Virus record (IMG/VR): IMGVR_UViG_3300017917_002520
Coordinates: 1 to 59,153 of that record
DNA length: 59,153 nucleotides
Source of the DNA: a virus
Direction: 5' to 3' (one strand)
Shown piece after piece: positions 27,777-57,911 of this stretch. The notes beneath the pieces are model-generated. The model saw nothing but the letters and a program-made list of their open reading frames with translations. It searched no databases and was not told the DNA's origin. A program made the position numbers and the translations under genes. Position 1 is the stretch's first letter; each line of letters opens with the position of its first letter.

Positions 27777-30479
27777 TTAGAAGTTGTAACGTAAAGATAC
27801 ATTCCATGTTCTACCTAATCCGAAGAAACCTTGATTACCATCCGCAATTCCGTTATAAACTCTACCGTTTGATTGATAAGTACCTAAAGATGGATTTGAC
27901 GAACTAATGTTGTCTGTTGTTTTAATATTACTTGATAATTCAGATAAATAAACTTCGTCAAATACGTTATTAACATTTACTCTTAAAGTTAAATTATCTT
28001 TTTTATTTTTTCCTAATAATAATTTATAAGAAACACCAGCGTCAACTAAATCATATGTTGGTAATAATAAATTGTCTTTAACCGCGCCAACACTTGCATA
28101 TAACTTGTCATAAGTTCTCCAATCAGCATCAACAGATAAACCTCTTAATACTTCATATTTTGCACCTAACCCCCAAGTAGTTTGAGCAGCGTCACCAACT
28201 TTACCACCATCAACATCAACTAAAGTTTCTGTTAATACATTTTGATTTTCATCAATTTGTCTTGTAATTGAACTACCGTTGTATTCCCAATTTCCGATAG
28301 ACGCAAAACCTTTAATATCTAATTTTGTTGTCGGTTTAACAATAAAATCAACCTCTACACCTGAGTGAATTTGTTCTACACCTAAATTAGACTTATAAAC
28401 TAAATCACCTTGAGTTAATACTGTGGTTCCAATTGTTTCAGTTGGTAAAGTAACTACTCTTGATGATGAAACAACTCTATCTTTCCAAGAAGTTCTGTAT
28501 GCATTAACACTACCACTAATAAATTTAGATTTGAATGTATATCCACCCTCTAAACCAAATATTTTTTCATTTGATGTTAATGGGTTTACTTCATTAGTAA
28601 AATTTAAATAAATGTTATCATGATATGGTTGACGAGAATATAATCCTGTATTTACATAAAACGAGTGTTTATCATTAATTGTATAACTACCACCAGCTTT
28701 AAGGTTATATCCTAAATTTTCAACTTTTTCAGATTTTTCATATTCCGGTAAGTAATCATATCTGTCAAATCTAACATGAGTTTGATTTGATAATGAACCT
28801 TGTACGAATGCAGAAAAATTATCTTTACTATATTCTAATTGTCCAAATATACCACCATAGTTAATTGTTTCACTATAATCATAATCGATTCTTTGAGATT
28901 CACTTAAATTGTTAAATGATGCACCCCATGGATTTGTTGATAATGATTCGGTTACTGTTTGTAACACATTACTACCTTGCATTTGATGGTTAGAACCTCT
29001 TAATCTTCTTGAATCAGTAAAATTTGTTAAACCTAAAAAGTTATTAACTTGTCTGTAATGTGTACCATCGTAAGTTCTTAAATCAACACCTAAATTTAAA
29101 TTAAGGTTTTCAGTTAATTTTGTATTAAGATTAGATACCACACCATACCAAGAATGGTTATTCATTGATGACCTAATTAAATAACTATTAGCAAAAGTTC
29201 CTGCTCCGTTAGCAATTGCACTATTGTTAGCGTAAATTTGGTCAAAGTCAATATAAGTGTTTTGAACTTGGTTAGTATAAGGATTTAATTCTGTTTTGAA
29301 TTTTTTGTTCCCTGACGCACCATAGTTTCCTGTTCCACCACCTCTACCCCAAGATGCATATAACACGGTAGATAAGTTAGTTTTTTCACTAATCTTGTAA
29401 TCCCAGTTAATATTCGCAACCGGTTTGTGATAGAAGTTTACTCTTTCAGATAAAAATTGTCCGTTTAAATAACCATAGTTGTTATTGTACTTTCTACCGA
29501 ACCCTAAATAATCTGAAATTCTTTTACTAAAGTTTTGGTTGTGCCATTGTGGTGCACCTGTAATTAAGAAGTTAAAATTATGTTTGTCATTCAATTTATA
29601 TCCTAAAGAGATAAAATAATTTTGACCTTGTCCTTGAGTTCCGTCATTAAATCCATCACCTTGCCAATGAGAGAACATTGTTGTAACTGCAAGTCCGTTT
29701 TTCATTAAACCGGTACTATATGTCGCAGTAGTTTTTAGATAGTTATCATTACCAACATTAGTTGAAACGAAACCACCTTCTCTTTTATCAATAGTTTTAG
29801 TGATAAAGTTCACAGTACCTCCAACTGATGAAATAGCCAATTTAGACGAACCTAAACCTCTTTGGATTTGAATTGCATTTGCAATATCTCCCATACCTGA
29901 CCAGTTTGACCAATACATCTTACCATCTTCCATACCATTAATTGGTTGTCCGTTTAATAAGAATGCTGTGTTATCTTGTTGGAATCCACGAACTGAAATT
30001 CTTGAATCACCAAAACCTCCTGATTGTCCTGCAACATAAATAGATGGTGTGTTAACCAATGTCTGTGTAATGTCATTAGAACCGATTTTAGCCTGTATCT
30101 CAGCCATTTTAATGGTAGACACCGCAATAGGTGTTTTACGACCTTGAGCAACGTCAATTACCCCTTTACCAACAACAACTACCTCAGCCAATGAATTTTC
30201 TTCAGGATTTAACGAAATAAGAACATTTCCACCGTTAACAGTGTATTGTCTTTTTCCGTAACCCAAATAAGATACTGAAATAACATCATTAGTTTTTGCG
30301 GTCTTTAATTCGAACTCTCCTTCAAGACCTGTGGTTGTATGTTCAGTTTTAAATTGAACATGAGCCCCGACCAATGGTTCATTTGTAGATTGGTCAACTA
30401 CCTTTCCTTTTGTTTGGGAGAAAGCCCCCAACGAAAATGCTAATGTTAATAGCAATGCTCCGATAAACTTTGTTTTCAT
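27777..30479 (-). CDS. TonB-dependent outer membrane receptor
   Basis: 900 residues, full length for the family. Signal peptide MKTKFIGALLLTLAFSLGAF, then a CarboxypepD_reg-like domain (residues 25-105: KGKVVDQSTNEPLVGA). A TonB-box-like EVVVVGKGVIDVA follows near residue 98, then a plug (ISVRGFQQDNTAFLLNGQPI; IQRGLGSSKLAISSVGGTVN) and a long beta barrel ending in an aromatic RYNF. This family imports siderophores, cobalamin or glycans through the outer membrane using TonB. No SusD-type partner is present, and the ligand is not readable from the sequence. A phage carrying it is unusual. Its downstream end meets the HNH gene tail to tail. Confidence 0.92.
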   Translation of the reverse strand: MKTKFIGALLLTLAFSLGAFSQTKGKVVDQSTNEPLVGAHVQFKTEHTTTGLEGEFELKTAKTNDVISVSYLGYGKRQYTVNGGNVLISLNPEENSLAEVVVVGKGVIDVAQGRKTPIAVSTIKMAEIQAKIGSNDITQTLVNTPSIYVAGQSGGFGDSRISVRGFQQDNTAFLLNGQPINGMEDGKMYWSNWSGMGDIANAIQIQRGLGSSKLAISSVGGTVNFITKTIDKREGGFVSTNVGNDNYLKTTATYSTGLMKNGLAVTTMFSHWQGDGFNDGTQGQGQNYFISLGYKLNDKHNFNFLITGAPQWHNQNFSKRISDYLGFGRKYNNNYGYLNGQFLSERVNFYHKPVANINWDYKISEKTNLSTVLYASWGRGGGTGNYGASGNKKFKTELNPYTNQVQNTYIDFDQIYANNSAIANGAGTFANSYLIRSSMNNHSWYGVVSNLNTKLTENLNLNLGVDLRTYDGTHYRQVNNFLGLTNFTDSRRLRGSNHQMQGSNVLQTVTESLSTNPWGASFNNLSESQRIDYDYSETINYGGIFGQLEYSKDNFSAFVQGSLSNQTHVRFDRYDYLPEYEKSEKVENLGYNLKAGGSYTINDKHSFYVNTGLYSRQPYHDNIYLNFTNEVNPLTSNEKIFGLEGGYTFKSKFISGSVNAYRTSWKDRVVSSSRVVTLPTETIGTTVLTQGDLVYKSNLGVEQIHSGVEVDFIVKPTTKLDIKGFASIGNWEYNGSSITRQIDENQNVLTETLVDVDGGKVGDAAQTTWGLGAKYEVLRGLSVDADWRTYDKLYASVGAVKDNLLLPTYDLVDAGVSYKLLLGKNKKDNLTLRVNVNNVFDEVYLSELSSNIKTTDNISSSNPSLGTYQSNGRVYNGIADGNQGFFGLGRTWNVSLRYNF

Positions 30480-38558: not shown

Positions 38559-39275
38559 TTATTTTCCTAAAAAATCGTTTAATTTTTTCATTAAGTCAAC
38601 TGATTTCTCAACATAATCATCATTTTGTTTGTATTTTTTTTCTTCTTCTAAGTTTTCTTCATATTTCTCTCTATCATTCGCATTTGAAAACAAATATGCT
38701 CCCGGTGTTGACGGTGATGATACTAAGTCAAAACAAATTAATTCAAAATCATCTTGAACTTCATTTCTCTCACCAACTTTTTTTAATGAACCAACACCTC
38801 TTGAAGATATCCCTAAAGTAACTCCTTGTCTCATTAAATTAGCCGCTTGGTCTCCTTTAGTTGAGACAATCCCTCTTTCGTGGAACCCAGGTGATGTTAA
38901 TAACTTAAGTTTACCCATTAAGATGTTTTTATCCCACCAAATATCTGTAATAATATGAGACACTCTATCTAAGTCAATTAATGACGACTCAGGGTGATTT
39001 AATTCAGAAGTAGACAATCCTTTTGCGATTGCTTGTTTGTATCTGTCAGCCTCTCTTTTTAGTATCCTTTCCGGATATGTTCTACCATTTCTATTTGGAG
39101 TATCATACTTTTGAAGAACGGCATAAAACTCAAATGGATTTCTGTAATCCATATCTTTAGCCTCTTTAAGTACTATCTCATTATGTTTGTCTTTAGGTGA
39201 AACCCAACCCGCATCAGTTTCAATTAGAATACCATGCCCAATTTCGTTTGCTTCTAAAATTCTTAATTGTTTCAT
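38559..39275 (-). CDS. gp21: Prohead core protease, T4 gp21-like
   Basis: 238 residues of the herpesvirus assemblin/gp21-type serine protease fold. FYAVLQKYDTPNRNGRTYPE is a conserved early block. LNHPESSLIDLDRVSHII carries the catalytic His (about residue 94). GISSRGVGSL carries the catalytic Ser (157/158). FELICFDLVSSPSTPGAYLF closes the domain. It would process scaffold, capsid protein and any tagged internal proteins at (L/I)xE sites. T4 order gp20-67-68-21-22-23 is matched by its neighbours. Confidence 0.9.
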   Translation of the reverse strand: MKQLRILEANEIGHGILIETDAGWVSPKDKHNEIVLKEAKDMDYRNPFEFYAVLQKYDTPNRNGRTYPERILKREADRYKQAIAKGLSTSELNHPESSLIDLDRVSHIITDIWWDKNILMGKLKLLTSPGFHERGIVSTKGDQAANLMRQGVTLGISSRGVGSLKKVGERNEVQDDFELICFDLVSSPSTPGAYLFSNANDREKYEENLEEEKKYKQNDDYVEKSVDLMKKLNDFLGK

Positions 39276-49713: not shown

Positions 49714-50262
49714 ATGAACACAACTGAAACATTTATTAAACACGGAGAATATAATATTGATAATATTTTAAAAATTATCAAGGATAATAATTTGGATTGG
49801 GATGAATTTACCGATAGACAAAAAAGGTTTAATACGGAACATGTTCACACAAAAACAATTCCAATCATTTTTGATAAAACTTTTAATTTCAATCATTTTG
49901 AATTAGTTCCGACAGACCATTACCCTTTATTTGTTGAAGAAATTTCTAATCTTGAGGAAATCATTAAATCAAATACCGGTGAAAATGGTAGGATAATGAG
50001 AGCTATTTTGGTTAAATTAACCGCAGGCAAATCAATAAGACCTCACAGAGACATTGTGGGGATAAGTTTAGTTGTGTGTAGAAGAATCCACATACCTATT
50101 CAAACTAATGAGAATTGTTTTTTTACCGTTGGTGATGATAAGAGGAATTTAAAAATAGGTGAGTTGTGGGAAATAAATAATGATAAACAATTACATTCAG
50201 TTGATAATTTAGGTAATGAAGATAGAATTCATTTAATTGTTGATTGGCATAAAATAGATTAA
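49714..50262 (+). CDS. Aspartyl/asparaginyl beta-hydroxylase-like 2OG oxygenase
   Basis: 182 residues. The iron-binding facial triad appears as PHRD (His...Asp) and HSVDN or RIHLI His near residue 160-175; RRIHIPIQTN is the conserved block that binds 2-oxoglutarate with Arg. GELWEINNDKQLHSVDN is a hallmark block of this family. It would hydroxylate Asp/Asn residues of a protein or an amino-acid-like substrate using oxygen and iron. It directly precedes the sulfotransferase gene. Confidence 0.82.
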   Translation: MNTTETFIKHGEYNIDNILKIIKDNNLDWDEFTDRQKRFNTEHVHTKTIPIIFDKTFNFNHFELVPTDHYPLFVEEISNLEEIIKSNTGENGRIMRAILVKLTAGKSIRPHRDIVGISLVVCRRIHIPIQTNENCFFTVGDDKRNLKIGELWEINNDKQLHSVDNLGNEDRIHLIVDWHKID

Positions 50263-50268
50263 ACGATT

Positions 50269-50937
50269 ATGGTATCAAAAGAATTAAAATTAATATTTTT
50301 ACAACCACCCAAAACGGCATCAAGGTCTTTAAATAATTGTCTTGTAAATAATGGGTTTATAATGTCATATCAATCTGAAAAATATCCGGTTTATAAAATT
50401 CATTTAAAATTAGACGAAATAGTTGAAAAATATGAGATAGAATCTCTTGATGGGTATAAAGTAATTCAAATCACACGAAACCCATATGATAAATTCATAT
50501 CAAGTTATTATCATCAAATAAGAATTTTTGAAAAACCGGAGTTCCAAGGTCATATCCCAATTAGTGGTTATACTTTTGATGAATTTTTAATTCATTTAAA
50601 TTCAACAATAAAATCAGAAAATTTTATTGAGTCATTTTACGGTAATCCCGATTACATTAATTATGTGATTTCAAATAAACCAACATGGGGAGGTTCAAGG
50701 TTTTATCATACACAAACTAGTTGGAAAAATATGGATTGTGATTTTTATCATTTCAAATTAGAAAACCTTGTTAATGATATAACACCTCTTAATAACTTAA
50801 TTGGTCTAAATCTCCCACCTTTGGAATCAATTAACTCCAATCCATTAGAAATAGATTACGAACAACATAAAACAGAAACAAATAAACAAATAATTAAAAA
50901 CTTGTTTTTAGAAGATTTTATAAATTTTTCATACTAA
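50269..50937 (+). CDS. Sulfotransferase (PAPS-dependent)
   Basis: 222 residues. The 5'-phosphosulfate loop is FLQPPKTASRSLNN (residues 10-23). The 3'-phosphate site is ITRNPYDKFISSYYHQI. WGGSRFYHTQTSWKN and FYHFKLENLVND are later family blocks. It would move sulfate from PAPS to a hydroxyl of a carbohydrate, the usual job of this class. Its position six bases after the hydroxylase gene suggests a joint modification of a phage or host glycan or protein. Confidence 0.82.
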   Translation: MVSKELKLIFLQPPKTASRSLNNCLVNNGFIMSYQSEKYPVYKIHLKLDEIVEKYEIESLDGYKVIQITRNPYDKFISSYYHQIRIFEKPEFQGHIPISGYTFDEFLIHLNSTIKSENFIESFYGNPDYINYVISNKPTWGGSRFYHTQTSWKNMDCDFYHFKLENLVNDITPLNNLIGLNLPPLESINSNPLEIDYEQHKTETNKQIIKNLFLEDFINFSY

Positions 50938-50970: not shown

Positions 50971-51357
50971 TTACTTTCTTAATTCTTTCAATTGGTCTCG
51001 AAGTTCAATTGATTTTTCGAAATTTTGGTCTTTAATGGATTGTTTCAATTCTTCTTTCAATTCTTCAATTTGTTTTTGATTGGTTTCAAATTTTTTGATT
51101 TTATCTCTTAATTCAACCGCCATTTCAAAATCTTCATTTTCAATTGCAATCTCCAATTGTTTTTCTAATGATTTTACTCCCGATGGTTTTTTAGTTCCGA
51201 ATGGTTTACTACCTCTATAATAAGTTGTTATTCTTGTTGTACCATCTTCGGATACTTTAGTTTGTGATTTCCATTCCCCTAAACGAGAATCGAACTGAGC
51301 AAACATTTCATCAAACGCTCTTAAGATGTCATTAAAGTTTTTTTCGTTTCCAAACAT
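50971..51357 (-). CDS. UVR-motif protein, possible Clp adaptor
   Basis: 128 residues. Two UVR motifs stand in tandem at the C-terminus: LEIAIENEDFEMAVELRDKI and LKQSIKDQNFEKSIELRDQL. The N-terminus is a short helical region plus a Thr/Arg-rich strand pair. UVR motifs occur in UvrB/UvrC and also in McsA, an adaptor of the ClpC chaperone. It is divergent from the ClpC-type gene, which itself contains a UVR-like segment. A role as ClpC partner is an inference from that pairing. Confidence 0.65.
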   Translation of the reverse strand: MFGNEKNFNDILRAFDEMFAQFDSRLGEWKSQTKVSEDGTTRITTYYRGSKPFGTKKPSGVKSLEKQLEIAIENEDFEMAVELRDKIKKFETNQKQIEELKEELKQSIKDQNFEKSIELRDQLKELRK

Positions 51358-51541: not shown

Positions 51542-53557
51542 ATGAACGACTTAATGGACGACAACGAAAAATCAGGTGGTAAAGCACAAAAACAGGCAGT
51601 TGATAGTAACACTCCTGTATTAGACAACTTCAGTAGAGATTTGAACAAATTGGCTCAAGAAGGAAAATTAGACCCTGTTATTGGTAGAGACGCCGAGATT
51701 TTGAGAATTGCTCAAATCCTTTCTCGTAGAAAGAAAAATAACCCTATTATTATTGGTGAACCTGGTTGTGGTAAAACCGCACTTGTTGAAGGTCTTGCCA
51801 TGAAAATTGTTAGTGGGGAATGTCCAAGAAACTTGGTAGATAAAAGAATCGTTAATCTTGATTTAACTTCGGTGGTTGCCGGTACAAAATATCGTGGTCA
51901 ATTCGAAGAAAGAATGAAAGTGATTATCGAGGAATTAAGAGACAACCCAAACATCATTGTATTCATCGATGAAATCCATACCTTGGTAGGTTCAGGTAAT
52001 TCATCAGGTTCAATGGATGGTTCAAACATCTTCAAACCAGCTCTTGCTCGTGGTGAAGTTCAATGTATTGGTGCAACAACTCTTGATGAGTTCCGTAAAA
52101 ACATTGAAAAGGATGGAGCATTAGAGCGTAGATTCCAAAAAGTTGTGGTAGAACCATCAACTGTGGAAGAAACAATCCAAATTCTTAAAAATGTTCGTGA
52201 TAAATACGAATCATACCACAAGGTATTATATAGTGACGAAGTTGTTGAAACTTGTGTTAAATTAGCTGACCGATATATTACGGACCGTGAGTTCCCGGAT
52301 AAAGCATTCGACATCATGGATGAGGTTGGGGCGAGAATGCAAACCGAAGTTAAAGTTCCTGAAATTATCGAGGAATTGAAAAAGAAAGCTGCGGAGATTA
52401 AAGTTGAGAAAATGGAAGTAGTTAAAAAACAAAACTACGAACAAGCAGCTCAACTTAGAGATAAGGAGAAAAAGTTGTTAATTAAACTTGAGGCAGAAAA
52501 AGAAAAATTCGCAAAACAAATGGACTTGGAAAAACAAACTATTGTTTTGGAAACCGTGTATCAAGTTGTTTCAAGTATGACTAAGATTCCTGTGAATAAA
52601 ATGGATGCTGACGATTCTAAGGCATTAATGAACTTGGATAAATCAATCATGGGTAAAGTAATTGGTCAGGATGCTGCGGTTGTTAAAATCGCAAAATCAA
52701 TCAAGAGAAATCGTTTAGGTATTAAAGACCCTAACAGACCTATCGGTTCATTCATCTTCTTAGGTTCAACCGGTGTTGGTAAAACTCACTTGGCAAAACA
52801 ATTGGCGAAAGAAATGTTCGGTAGTGAAGATTCATTAATCCGTGTGGATATGTCTGAATACCAAGAGAAACACACCGTATCTAAATTGGTTGGAGCACCT
52901 CCGGGATATGTTGGATATGAAGAAGGTGGTTTATTAACTGAAAAAGTTAAAAACAAACCATACTCTGTAATCTTATTTGATGAGGTGGAAAAAGCTCATA
53001 AAGATGTCTTTACCGTATTACTTCAAATCTTAGATGATGGACATGTAACCGATAGTTTAGGTAGAAAGATTAACTTCAAAAATACCTTGATTATCTTAAC
53101 ATCAAACTTGGGGGTTAAGAAATTACAAGATTTCGGAACTGGTATTGGTTTCTCAAATGGTTCATACGCAGATGAAGAAGCTAAGAAAGATATTCTTATG
53201 AAAGAAATGAAAAATTTCTTCTCACCTGAATTCATCAACCGTATTGATGATACAATCGTATTCAACTCATTGACTCCTGAGGACATTGAGAAAATCACAG
53301 AAATTGAATTATCTAAATTGATGACTCGTCTGAGTGAAATGAAATACAATGTTACATATGACAATGATGTTGTAAAATATTTGGCTAAGGTCGGATTTGA
53401 TGAAATATACGGAGCAAGACCATTAAAAAGAGCAATCCAAGATAAAATTGAGGATTTATTGTCTGAGGAAGTATTAACCGGAAAAATGGTTGAGGGTAAA
53501 ACCTATAACTTAAAGATGGATGGTGAAGAAATCAAAATAACCAAAAAAGGTAGATAA
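51542..53557 (+). CDS. ClpC-type AAA+ unfoldase lacking the N-domain
   Basis: 671 residues, where host ClpC has about 820-850; the repeated N-domain that binds adaptors is replaced by about 30 disordered residues. First ATPase: GEPGCGKTA (72-80), VFIDEIH (140-146). A UVR-like coiled-coil segment (VVKKQNYEQAAQLRDKEKKL, about 294-313) lies between the ATPase domains. Second ATPase: GSTGVGKTH (408-416), ILFDEVEK (477-484). The IGF loop at 535-537 fits the ClpP-docking tripeptide. It would unfold proteins into host ClpP. Confidence 0.88.
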   Translation: MNDLMDDNEKSGGKAQKQAVDSNTPVLDNFSRDLNKLAQEGKLDPVIGRDAEILRIAQILSRRKKNNPIIIGEPGCGKTALVEGLAMKIVSGECPRNLVDKRIVNLDLTSVVAGTKYRGQFEERMKVIIEELRDNPNIIVFIDEIHTLVGSGNSSGSMDGSNIFKPALARGEVQCIGATTLDEFRKNIEKDGALERRFQKVVVEPSTVEETIQILKNVRDKYESYHKVLYSDEVVETCVKLADRYITDREFPDKAFDIMDEVGARMQTEVKVPEIIEELKKKAAEIKVEKMEVVKKQNYEQAAQLRDKEKKLLIKLEAEKEKFAKQMDLEKQTIVLETVYQVVSSMTKIPVNKMDADDSKALMNLDKSIMGKVIGQDAAVVKIAKSIKRNRLGIKDPNRPIGSFIFLGSTGVGKTHLAKQLAKEMFGSEDSLIRVDMSEYQEKHTVSKLVGAPPGYVGYEEGGLLTEKVKNKPYSVILFDEVEKAHKDVFTVLLQILDDGHVTDSLGRKINFKNTLIILTSNLGVKKLQDFGTGIGFSNGSYADEEAKKDILMKEMKNFFSPEFINRIDDTIVFNSLTPEDIEKITEIELSKLMTRLSEMKYNVTYDNDVVKYLAKVGFDEIYGARPLKRAIQDKIEDLLSEEVLTGKMVEGKTYNLKMDGEEIKITKKGR

Positions 53558-54482: not shown

Positions 54483-55352
54483 TTAATATTTGACTTTTAA
54501 TTTCATTATTTTATTTTTTGAGTTATTTTTCCAAGTTTCAAAATACTTAACAAAATCATTCATCTGATTTAATAAATCGATACACCCTATTGAACCTGGA
54601 ATTCCTCCCCCATGAATATAAAAACTACCTCTACCAAAAGTTTCAGTTTCACCAAATTTAGTTATCGGTAATCTATAATCACCCCAAGCCACAAAATCAC
54701 TTTTGGTTCCGGTATTCCAATTATGTCCTTTATCATTCATCATAATATCATAAAGTTCTTTATCCGATTTTTTTTGGATAAAATCTGTGGCATTACCATT
54801 TGTTCGTTTTTGTATTTGACTAACAGTATAATCACCTGCAGGTATTGGTCCTTGTTCTTTTATTTTCATAAACTCAGCATTCTTACCACCATATTTTTTA
54901 ACAAGTTGTTCTGAATTTTTATCACCAAAAGTATTAAATTTAGTTCTACCTGAAACCGCATTCCAAGATTTAACTATTTTTCCATTTTTAAACCATTTTA
55001 ATTTACTACCGTCAAATAATAGATAATCAGATTCAATATTAGATGCATTTTTTTTATCGTTTTCAATTTTATTTACCGGTTGATTTACTTTATTACCTTT
55101 GTCAGTTGTAATTTTAAAAATTTTTGTATCTATTGCTTTAGTTTGATTAGGATTCGCCTCAGTCCAATTAGTTTCACCTTTCTTAACATTTCTAAAAAAG
55201 TATTTACCATCCTTTTTCATATATTCATAAGGGTCACCCATCTCTCCTTTTTTAATTTCTTGTTCAGGTAAATATTGACGATTAGTTGCCGATTCATGAA
55301 GATTTAAAATTCTATTTTTTTCTTCTTCCGGTATATTAAATAAATTTGACAT
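54483..55352 (-). CDS. Tagged DUF2778-type L,D-transpeptidase-like protein
   Basis: About 289 residues from ATG 55352; a start at 55379 would add a hydrophobic leader that is probably not translated. Residues 8-22 (PEEEKNRILNLHESAT) are the same tag as on the OmpA-like protein, followed by YLPEQ with an LxE site at E30. The catalytic domain follows: LFDGSKLKWFKNGKIVKSW, KEQGPIPAGDYTVSQ, and RGSFYIHGGGIPGSIGCIDL with His and Cys as expected for DUF2778/Tlde1-like L,D-transpeptidases. It would modify peptidoglycan cross-bridges or stems. Confidence 0.7.
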   Translation of the reverse strand: MSNLFNIPEEEKNRILNLHESATNRQYLPEQEIKKGEMGDPYEYMKKDGKYFFRNVKKGETNWTEANPNQTKAIDTKIFKITTDKGNKVNQPVNKIENDKKNASNIESDYLLFDGSKLKWFKNGKIVKSWNAVSGRTKFNTFGDKNSEQLVKKYGGKNAEFMKIKEQGPIPAGDYTVSQIQKRTNGNATDFIQKKSDKELYDIMMNDKGHNWNTGTKSDFVAWGDYRLPITKFGETETFGRGSFYIHGGGIPGSIGCIDLLNQMNDFVKYFETWKNNSKNKIMKLKVKY

Positions 55353-55367
55353 AATATTCAGTTTAAA

Positions 55368-55377
55368 TATAAATATC
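55368..55377 (-). promoter_or_regulatory. Candidate late-promoter element GATATTTATA
   Basis: GATATTTATA on the minus strand, 15 bases before the ATG of the tagged transpeptidase, the same ten bases as at 31866-31875. Confidence 0.4.
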
Positions 55378-55378
55378 A

Positions 55379-55411
55379 ATAAAAAAAAAAGAGACCTAAA
55401 TGGTCTCTTTT
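55379..55411 (-). terminator. Terminator after the M20 peptidase gene
   Basis: AAAGAGACC / GGTCTCTTT stem with T-run on the minus strand, between the peptidase stop and the tagged transpeptidase promoter. Confidence 0.85.
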
Positions 55412-55416
55412 ATATT

Positions 55417-56259
55417 TTAGAAGAATCTGTGATTATATCTTGGAATTTCAACAACTTCTTTAAAGTGTAATTTGTTTCCAAGTTTTTCAATCATTTGTTT
55501 ACCCATCTCAATTCCTCTGAACACATCTTCAATAACAACATATTCATTCGGAGTATGGTAATTGTAATATCCAATTGAAAAGTTAATACAAGAAAAACTA
55601 AATTTACTTCTCAACGCATAAACATCAGTATATGGGTGAACCATGTATCTCATACTATCAATGTCCATATTCTCCGTTAATACTTGATTACAAGATTCAA
55701 AAAATTCAGTATCTCTATCGAATAAATCTTGACTATAACACTTTTCAGTAATCATCCAGTTTTCAGGGGCATCAAATTGAATTCCATATCCAACATTTTT
55801 GAAAAACTCCGGGTCAGCCTTTTTGGAGCCATGACATCCGGTTTCTTCCGACACGAAAAACGCCGCTTTAACATTTGGTAATTCTTGAAGTAATTTTAAA
55901 CAAGCAAATACTCCACACTTATCATCACCACCAATTCCGGTTGGTAATCCATTTAAGTTGTAAGCTTTCAACGCATCTTTAATTTGACCTTGGGCATTTG
56001 GAAGTTGTTCTTCATGGACAATAATTGTATCCAATCTATGAACCGTATCGGTATGTGCAATTACACACGGGAAATAAAAATCCTCAGGTAAAGTTTCAAG
56101 TTCTTGTTTTGTTGCATAAACATTGTTATGTTCATCAACATAATGTTCAATATTGTTTTCCGTCAACCAATTCTTCAAGAATTCAACCATAAGGTCTTCT
56201 TGATAAGTAACCGTTGGAACACTCAGAACTTCTTTAAGTAATAATATATCGTTTGTCAT
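55417..56259 (-). CDS. M20-type metallopeptidase (PepT-like)
   Basis: 280 residues. Metal ligands in order: VIAHTDTVH (His, Asp), GIGGDDKCGVFACL (Asp), FFVSEETGCHGS (catalytic Glu pair), IQFDAPE (Asp) and YYNYHTPNEYV (His). This is the ligand pattern of the M20/M28 di-zinc aminopeptidases such as tripeptidase T. The dimerisation lid of PepT seems reduced, given the short length. It would release amino acids from small peptides in the cytoplasm. A metallopeptidase of this class is unusual on a phage. Confidence 0.8.
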   Translation of the reverse strand: MTNDILLLKEVLSVPTVTYQEDLMVEFLKNWLTENNIEHYVDEHNNVYATKQELETLPEDFYFPCVIAHTDTVHRLDTIIVHEEQLPNAQGQIKDALKAYNLNGLPTGIGGDDKCGVFACLKLLQELPNVKAAFFVSEETGCHGSKKADPEFFKNVGYGIQFDAPENWMITEKCYSQDLFDRDTEFFESCNQVLTENMDIDSMRYMVHPYTDVYALRSKFSFSCINFSIGYYNYHTPNEYVVIEDVFRGIEMGKQMIEKLGNKLHFKEVVEIPRYNHRFF

Positions 56260-57442: not shown

Positions 57443-57473
57443 TTTGGAATTTCAATATTTATGTTTATCTTTG
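57443..57473 (+). promoter_or_regulatory. Bacteroidetes-type promoter of the tmRNA gene
   Basis: TTTG at 57443-57446 and TATCTTTG at 57466-57473, spaced 19 bases. It ends 14 bases before the tmRNA 5' end, so the primary start would be near the mature end. Confidence 0.8.
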
Positions 57474-57487
57474 TATCGAAATAATAA

Positions 57488-57875
57488 GGGAGTGACATGG
57501 AATTGACTATTTGTGATAGTTATTCGGGGCACGTCGGAGCTGAATTAACTCTGTTAAACTGATTCAAACAAGTAAACGGAAACGTTTTAGACAAACTTTC
57601 AGCTGTTGGATTTATCCGCACTGAGGAAGTTGCTGTAGCCTAATCGGAAACACAACACGGGGTCGATGGACATATAACCTTGCAACAGAAGTCCCTACAA
57701 AGGTGTGGTTTCTACCCGAAAAGAAACAGGTGGAGGATTAGTTCTCAGTAAACCGAACCACTTAAAAAATAAGGGAATTGTGAAATTTCGGATTGTTAGC
57801 TCAAACAATGTCCTAAGCGTGTAGTCCTTAATAGGTAATACAAGTAACACCGGAGTTCGAGTCTCCGCACTTCCA
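57488..57875 (+). ncRNA. ssrA: tmRNA (ssrA) with a long divergent tag
   Basis: 388 nt. The 5' GGGAGTG pairs with 3' CACTTCC (57868-57874) as a seven-bp acceptor stem with one GU; the T arm GGAGTTCGAGTCTCC stands just before it. No CCA is encoded. The tag reading frame runs from GGA at 57578 to TAA at 57641: 21 codons, GNVLDKLS...EEVAVA. The hydrophobic end is like a proteolysis tag, but it is longer than the common type ending in ALAA. Function: frees stalled ribosomes and marks the product. Confidence 0.88.
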
Positions 57876-57882
57876 CTAAAAT

Positions 57883-57911
57883 AAAACCCCTCAATTCGAG
57901 GGGTTTTTTTA
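57883..57911 (+). terminator. Terminator of the tmRNA gene
   Basis: AAAACCCCTC / GAGGGGTTTT stem with loop AATTC and a T-run, eight bases past the tmRNA 3' end. Confidence 0.9.

Follow-up and report, generated by a model that had tools for sequence, protein, structure and literature searches.

Phages that carry their own tmRNA raise the question of what becomes of the proteins that it tags. The question is posed here by a 59,153-base virus record from IMG/VR (the window, meaning the whole stretch of DNA that was analyzed), in which a first-pass annotation had placed a complete tmRNA with a Bacteroidota-type promoter and terminator of its own and an unusual 21-residue tag, and had suggested that the tag might redirect the products of stalled ribosomes to a protease of the phage's choosing or sustain translation while host mRNA is being degraded. 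A Gp23-type capsid protein, a portal protein, a terminase, and an S77 prohead protease (38559-39275) identify the window as a fragment of a T4-like phage.

A covariance search confirms the presence of a complete tmRNA gene (ssrA; 57488-57878, plus strand, predicted length of 391 nt), with a full-length match to RF00023 (model positions 1 to 374) that scores 79.7 bits (E=2.4e-29) against a gathering score of 47. The acceptor stem (GGGAGTG/CACTTCC) contains the G3.U70 pair, which is the identity pair for alanine, and the T-arm loop (TTCGAGT) and discriminator A are likewise those of an alanine-type tmRNA. The gene ends in CTA, so that the CCA end would have to be added after transcription; some relatives encode it, but not all. 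ARAGORN reported no tmRNA in the window, and the usual annotation tool therefore misses this gene, as it does nearly all of the relatives described below. When the phage collection was searched by blastn with the tmRNA as the query, just short matches were returned, covering at most 12% of the query.

Upstream of the gene lies a Bacteroidota-type promoter of the form TTTG-N19-TATCTTTG (57443-57473, plus strand), with TTTG at 57443 and TATCTTTG at 57466-57473, 14 nt before the tmRNA; promoters of this type were found upstream of 46 of 78 phage tmRNAs, compared to 0.29 expected in shuffles. An intrinsic terminator hairpin, consisting of a stem and then a T-run, follows at 57883-57907 (plus strand), and three terminator-like sites were found where 0.2 were expected. 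The interval first proposed for the locus (57443-57911) rightly spans both elements, and the phage tmRNA is presumably transcribed and processed. The promoter form, together with the cellular SmpBs nearest to the phage SmpBs, which are almost all from Bacteroidota (∼44 to 59% identity), points to a member of the Bacteroidota as the most likely host.

Related tmRNAs are carried by numerous phage contigs, which are metagenomic and mostly incomplete. An exact T-arm search recovered 17 viral contigs, all of them with a full tmRNA; a search with the window's unfoldase gene added 80 further loci, and a nucleotide profile in IMG/VR yielded 79 phage tmRNAs of full length, counting that of the window. 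The G3.U70 pair is kept in at least 72 of these 79, with neighboring positions of the acceptor stem changing by compensating pairs, and the remaining seven sequences, in which the pair is not clear, seem to be shifted in register or truncated at an end. When 24 diverse sequences were folded together with RNAalifold, helix 2 and the T-arm were supported, both partners had changed in 22 of the 32 consensus pairs, and two further hairpins with covariation were predicted, in a fold that does not treat pseudoknots explicitly. The Rfam score and the covariation rule out a chance or misaligned RNA, and we regard it as close to certain that the window gene is a real tmRNA under selection. A second ssrA copy in Maribacter luteus (L245:7172-7581) was considered as a cellular instance of the phage type and rejected, as it is a decayed host-type gene with the tag GKNNYALAA. 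In two relatives, a GOLLD RNA (RF02032) lies ∼1 to 1.4 kb from the phage tmRNA (L013:1-298 and L018:6529-6935).

The tag reading frame runs from GGA at 57578 to the stop codon TAA at 57641-57643 (57578-57643, plus strand) and comprises 21 codons that read GNVLDKLSAVGFIRTEEVAVA, exactly as the first-pass annotation had proposed. A tag of 21 to 22 amino acids is present in all 79 full-length phage tmRNAs, where it takes the form of 51 distinct peptides in which Gly11 is invariant and Lys6 and Leu12 are almost so; constraint spans the whole length, with Gly11, Leu12, Lys6, and Met/Leu7 as its landmarks. Most tags end in VA and some in AA, and none end in LAA. Those of the 17 contigs found by the T-arm search differ from each other by codon-sized indels and many synonymous changes. 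The ratio pN/pS is lowest in the tag frame, at 0.59 versus 0.84 and 0.90 in the other frames for the 21-amino-acid class and 0.53 versus 1.49 and 1.88 for the 22-amino-acid class; by this measure the frame is under purifying selection.

For comparison, we took 30 cellular tmRNAs from genomes reached via the nearest cellular SmpBs. In 29 of these, the tag is 9 to 10 amino acids long and belongs to the GENNYALAA, DNTSYALAA, or GNTQYAMAA type; in the thirtieth, from a genome labeled Candidatus Saccharicenans, it was called as AEPVAVAA. The earlier estimate that the phage tag is about twice the common length is thus correct relative to the host tags, and the phage tags also lack the LAA end on which recognition by a ClpX-type host protein would depend. 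Length alone does not set them apart, since long tags also occur in mycoplasmas, that of Mesoplasma florum among them. The commonest tag length in the current tmRNA database is 10 amino acids (PMC11915505).

On the same strand, 3.9 kb upstream of the tmRNA, the window encodes a ClpC-like AAA+ unfoldase of 671 amino acids (51542-53557, plus strand), assigned through phrog_4871, Pfam, and its match to ClpC. It has two AAA+ modules with Walker A and B motifs, pore loops, and an IGF ClpP-docking loop. Its best solved match, Staphylococcus aureus ClpC, is covered only at residues 149 to 803; the window protein starts at about ClpC residue 149, so that the N-terminal Clp repeat domain, the adaptor domain, is missing. 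It is thus not a complete ClpC, although it may act as an unfoldase in the way that ClpC does. Across 92 unfoldase loci, the Walker motifs and pore loops recur along with an [IV]GF-type docking loop, and in all 76 of these with enough downstream DNA a tmRNA follows 2.0 to 5.6 kb past the unfoldase on the same strand; the remaining 16 contigs end too soon to show one. Conversely, the unfoldase is present in all 21 tmRNA contigs tested. A tblastn search of the phage collection with the unfoldase matched 166 phage records, nearly all at less than 60% identity.

The two other parts of a rescue and disposal pathway are found among the relatives. In the window, which ends 1.3 kb past the tmRNA, a search for SmpB found none, and no ClpP was recognized among the annotated genes. 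Of 64 related contigs, 14 encode SmpB (G001, with 309 kb, is one of them) and 25 encode ClpP. In 13 of the contigs with SmpB, its gene lies 0.1 to 2.6 kb beyond the tmRNA. Both ClpP and the unfoldase are encoded by a contig whose tag is identical to the window's (G015) and by one whose tag differs at a single residue (G017). No SmpB could be detected in G002, a relative of 321 kb. The aligned proteins look intact, with the C-terminal DKR tail retained in SmpB and the Ser-His-Asp triad in ClpP. We considered whether ClpP might instead be a capsid-maturation protease and rejected this, as an S77 prohead protease is already encoded in the window, and a relative's ClpP scores 226.8 bits with ClpP models versus 61 bits with head-maturation models.

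Searching viral contigs with the phage SmpB returned 80 loci, 36 of which have a tmRNA nearby, and the unfoldase is also encoded in 33 of those 36. All 12 SmpB contigs of more than 200 kb that were tested encode a ClpP and have a tmRNA match, which in three of them falls short of the gathering score, and seven also have the unfoldase (G107, G108, G115, G116, G118, G121, and G125). Together with G001, G003, G004, and G006, these seven make eleven contigs that carry tmRNA, SmpB, unfoldase, and ClpP, although some of the eleven are closely related. In several of the huge phages, including some with all four parts, the tag is of an unrelated type ∼25 amino acids long, such as GKTNVWDAINAFGAPVAEVEYAVAA in L337 (hand-read, in provisional frames), and hand reading of the SmpB-bearing huge phages L329 to L342 gives other long tags of ∼20 to 26 amino acids, in tmRNAs most of which ARAGORN misses. 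A shorter, ARAGORN-style tag was also considered and set aside: in L337, ARAGORN calls EVEYAVAA inside the apparent 25-amino-acid frame, and in the window it calls no tag at all.

We propose that these parts form a phage-encoded pathway of trans-translation and proteolysis with its own degron, a reading in which, taking the whole chain together, we have moderate confidence. The phage tmRNA would probably be charged with alanine by the host AlaRS, given the retention of G3.U70, and would enter stalled ribosomes with SmpB, supplied by the phage in many relatives and otherwise by the host. It would then add the 21-amino-acid tag, whose frame is conserved, to stalled products. The tag may be kept distinct from the host ALAA degron so that the phage unfoldase and ClpP read the tagged proteins, which would then be delivered to ClpP to the presumed benefit of the phage. 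The outcome would be a separate line of ribosome rescue and protein disposal in the infected cell, which would release ribosomes that had stalled on broken mRNA and might also return amino acids for reuse. The original suggestion of a phage-chosen protease therefore stands in part: the circumstantial case for such a machine is strong, with a ClpC-like unfoldase that has a docking loop in the window and ClpP, often with SmpB, in relatives, whereas the role of the tag as its degron is something we infer. A broader form of the proposal, which we hold tentatively and at slightly less than even chances, is that huge Bacteroidota phages run an orthogonal pathway with their own tmRNA, SmpB, unfoldase, and ClpP and a long degron unread by host proteases, in which at least two unrelated tag types would exist in different huge-phage lineages.

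Some caution is needed in reading the neighborhood. TerL and other genes also keep the same order across related loci, so that co-location alone is no proof of functional linkage; conservation of the neighbors may reflect shared descent in one phage clade, and the unfoldase could have a role in assembly or act on substrates that carry no tag. Stronger points than co-location are that the tag is conserved, that the protease parts are intact, and that the set recurs in distant huge phages.

The most serious competitor, which we nevertheless consider unlikely, is that the tmRNA only adds rescue capacity, with host ClpXP, ClpAP, or other proteases degrading its products and the long tag a result of lineage drift with no dedicated reader. 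Many phages do carry a tmRNA for which no protease partner is known (PMC9004378), small hydrophobic residues (mostly VA, sometimes AA) still form the end of the tag, and some large relatives, in which no SmpB was detected, would lean on the host. Against this, drift does not explain protein-level constraint over the whole length of a tag that never ends in LAA, nor the recurrence of an unfoldase and ClpP with it. In another alternative, the tag would be a functional peptide placed on truncated proteins, such as an inhibitor, a localization signal, or a stabilizing label; its conserved features are N terminal and central in a peptide that would be long enough for an amphipathic helix. The tmRNA might also serve to decoy or regulate the SmpB and ribosomes of the host, for which there is a precedent in the tRNA-domain-only tmRNA of phage DS6A, which inhibits host tmRNA (PMC4131195, PMC11915505). 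We consider these non-degron roles improbable, as a decoy alone is insufficient to account for retention of the reading frame, stop codon, and resume context together, and the recurrent ClpP and unfoldase fit degradation better.

Integration at ssrA, a common integration site, offers a further explanation, in which a recently acquired host tmRNA is carried without function for the phage, and a decayed second copy is present in Maribacter luteus. The phylogeny of 136 SmpBs speaks to the contrary: 48 phage sequences form one supported group apart from the Bacteroidota, the other nine fall nearby without firm support, and none are scattered among the Bacteroidota, which argues against repeated recent capture. 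The phage tags and tmRNAs are also far from those of hosts, so that recent derivation from a host is rejected on both counts, and structure, promoter, and tag are conserved over deep divergence. We therefore regard a functionless passenger as very improbable and retain the phage-encoded pathway as the preferred reading.

Complete ssrA genes have been reported on 402 of 18,146 phage genomes (PMC9004378; also PMC4131195). Mycobacteriophages Bxz1 and Wildcat, Bacillus phage G, the OM43 phage Melnitz, and pelagimyophages likewise have a complete ssrA; compared to these known phage tmRNAs, those described here are one-piece genes missed by ARAGORN, with a Bacteroidota-type promoter and a clade-conserved tag of 21 to 22 amino acids, and they are linked to a ClpC-like unfoldase and often to SmpB and ClpP. 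Al-Shayeb et al. (2020) described tmRNAs and SmpB in huge phages (PMC7162821), but the main text of that study does not mention Clp, its passages on these genes give no tags, and the authors used ARAGORN, which misses nearly all of the present class. ClpP, ClpS, ClpA, and ClpX are each present in some jumbo phages (PMC7824862), where they were read as host-directed or assembly factors without mention of tmRNA or SmpB. A published parallel for a long tag read by its own protease is that of Mesoplasma florum, whose ssrA tag and mf-Lon have been put to use in Escherichia coli as a foreign system (PMC9097571, PMC3439342); that system is cellular, has a different tag, and relies on Lon rather than ClpC and ClpP, and its orthogonality was measured, whereas ours is deduced from genes. 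Phage tmRNA, SmpB, ClpP, and ClpA/X have thus been reported singly, and we found no report joining tmRNA, SmpB, unfoldase, and ClpP in one phage, or a linked module with conserved long tags, in the literature searched, which covered few subscription journals.

If the proposal is correct, the virus brings its own rescue RNA, label, and label-reading machine, so that a viral takeover of protein quality control could be tested directly, and the tag and its reader would offer a new degron-protease pair for Bacteroidota. Because a widely used tmRNA finder overlooks the whole class, counts of phage tmRNAs are too low.

Two further genes near the unfoldase might belong to the same disposal line. An M20-type peptidase (55417-56259, minus strand; phrog_4191, PF01546) lies between the unfoldase and the tmRNA, with family members at the same place in 75 loci, almost all of those related, and we speculate that it could recycle ClpP products. 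Divergent from the unfoldase is a gene for a 128-amino-acid protein with two UVR motifs (50971-51357, minus strand; PF02151, E=9.4e-14), relatives of which occupy the same place in 42 loci; since ClpC itself and Clp adaptors such as McsA also contain UVR motifs, this protein is conjecturally a candidate Clp adaptor. Also near the tmRNA is a YkuD/Tlde1-type L,D-transpeptidase-like protein (54483-55379, minus strand), which just 5 of the 91 related loci share. Elsewhere in the window, a 900-amino-acid protein (27777-30479, minus strand) has TonB-receptor plug and carboxypeptidase-regulatory-like domains, a combination seen in outer-membrane transporters of Bacteroidota, and genes for an aspartyl/asparaginyl hydroxylase and a sulfotransferase lie side by side at 49714-50937 (plus strand).
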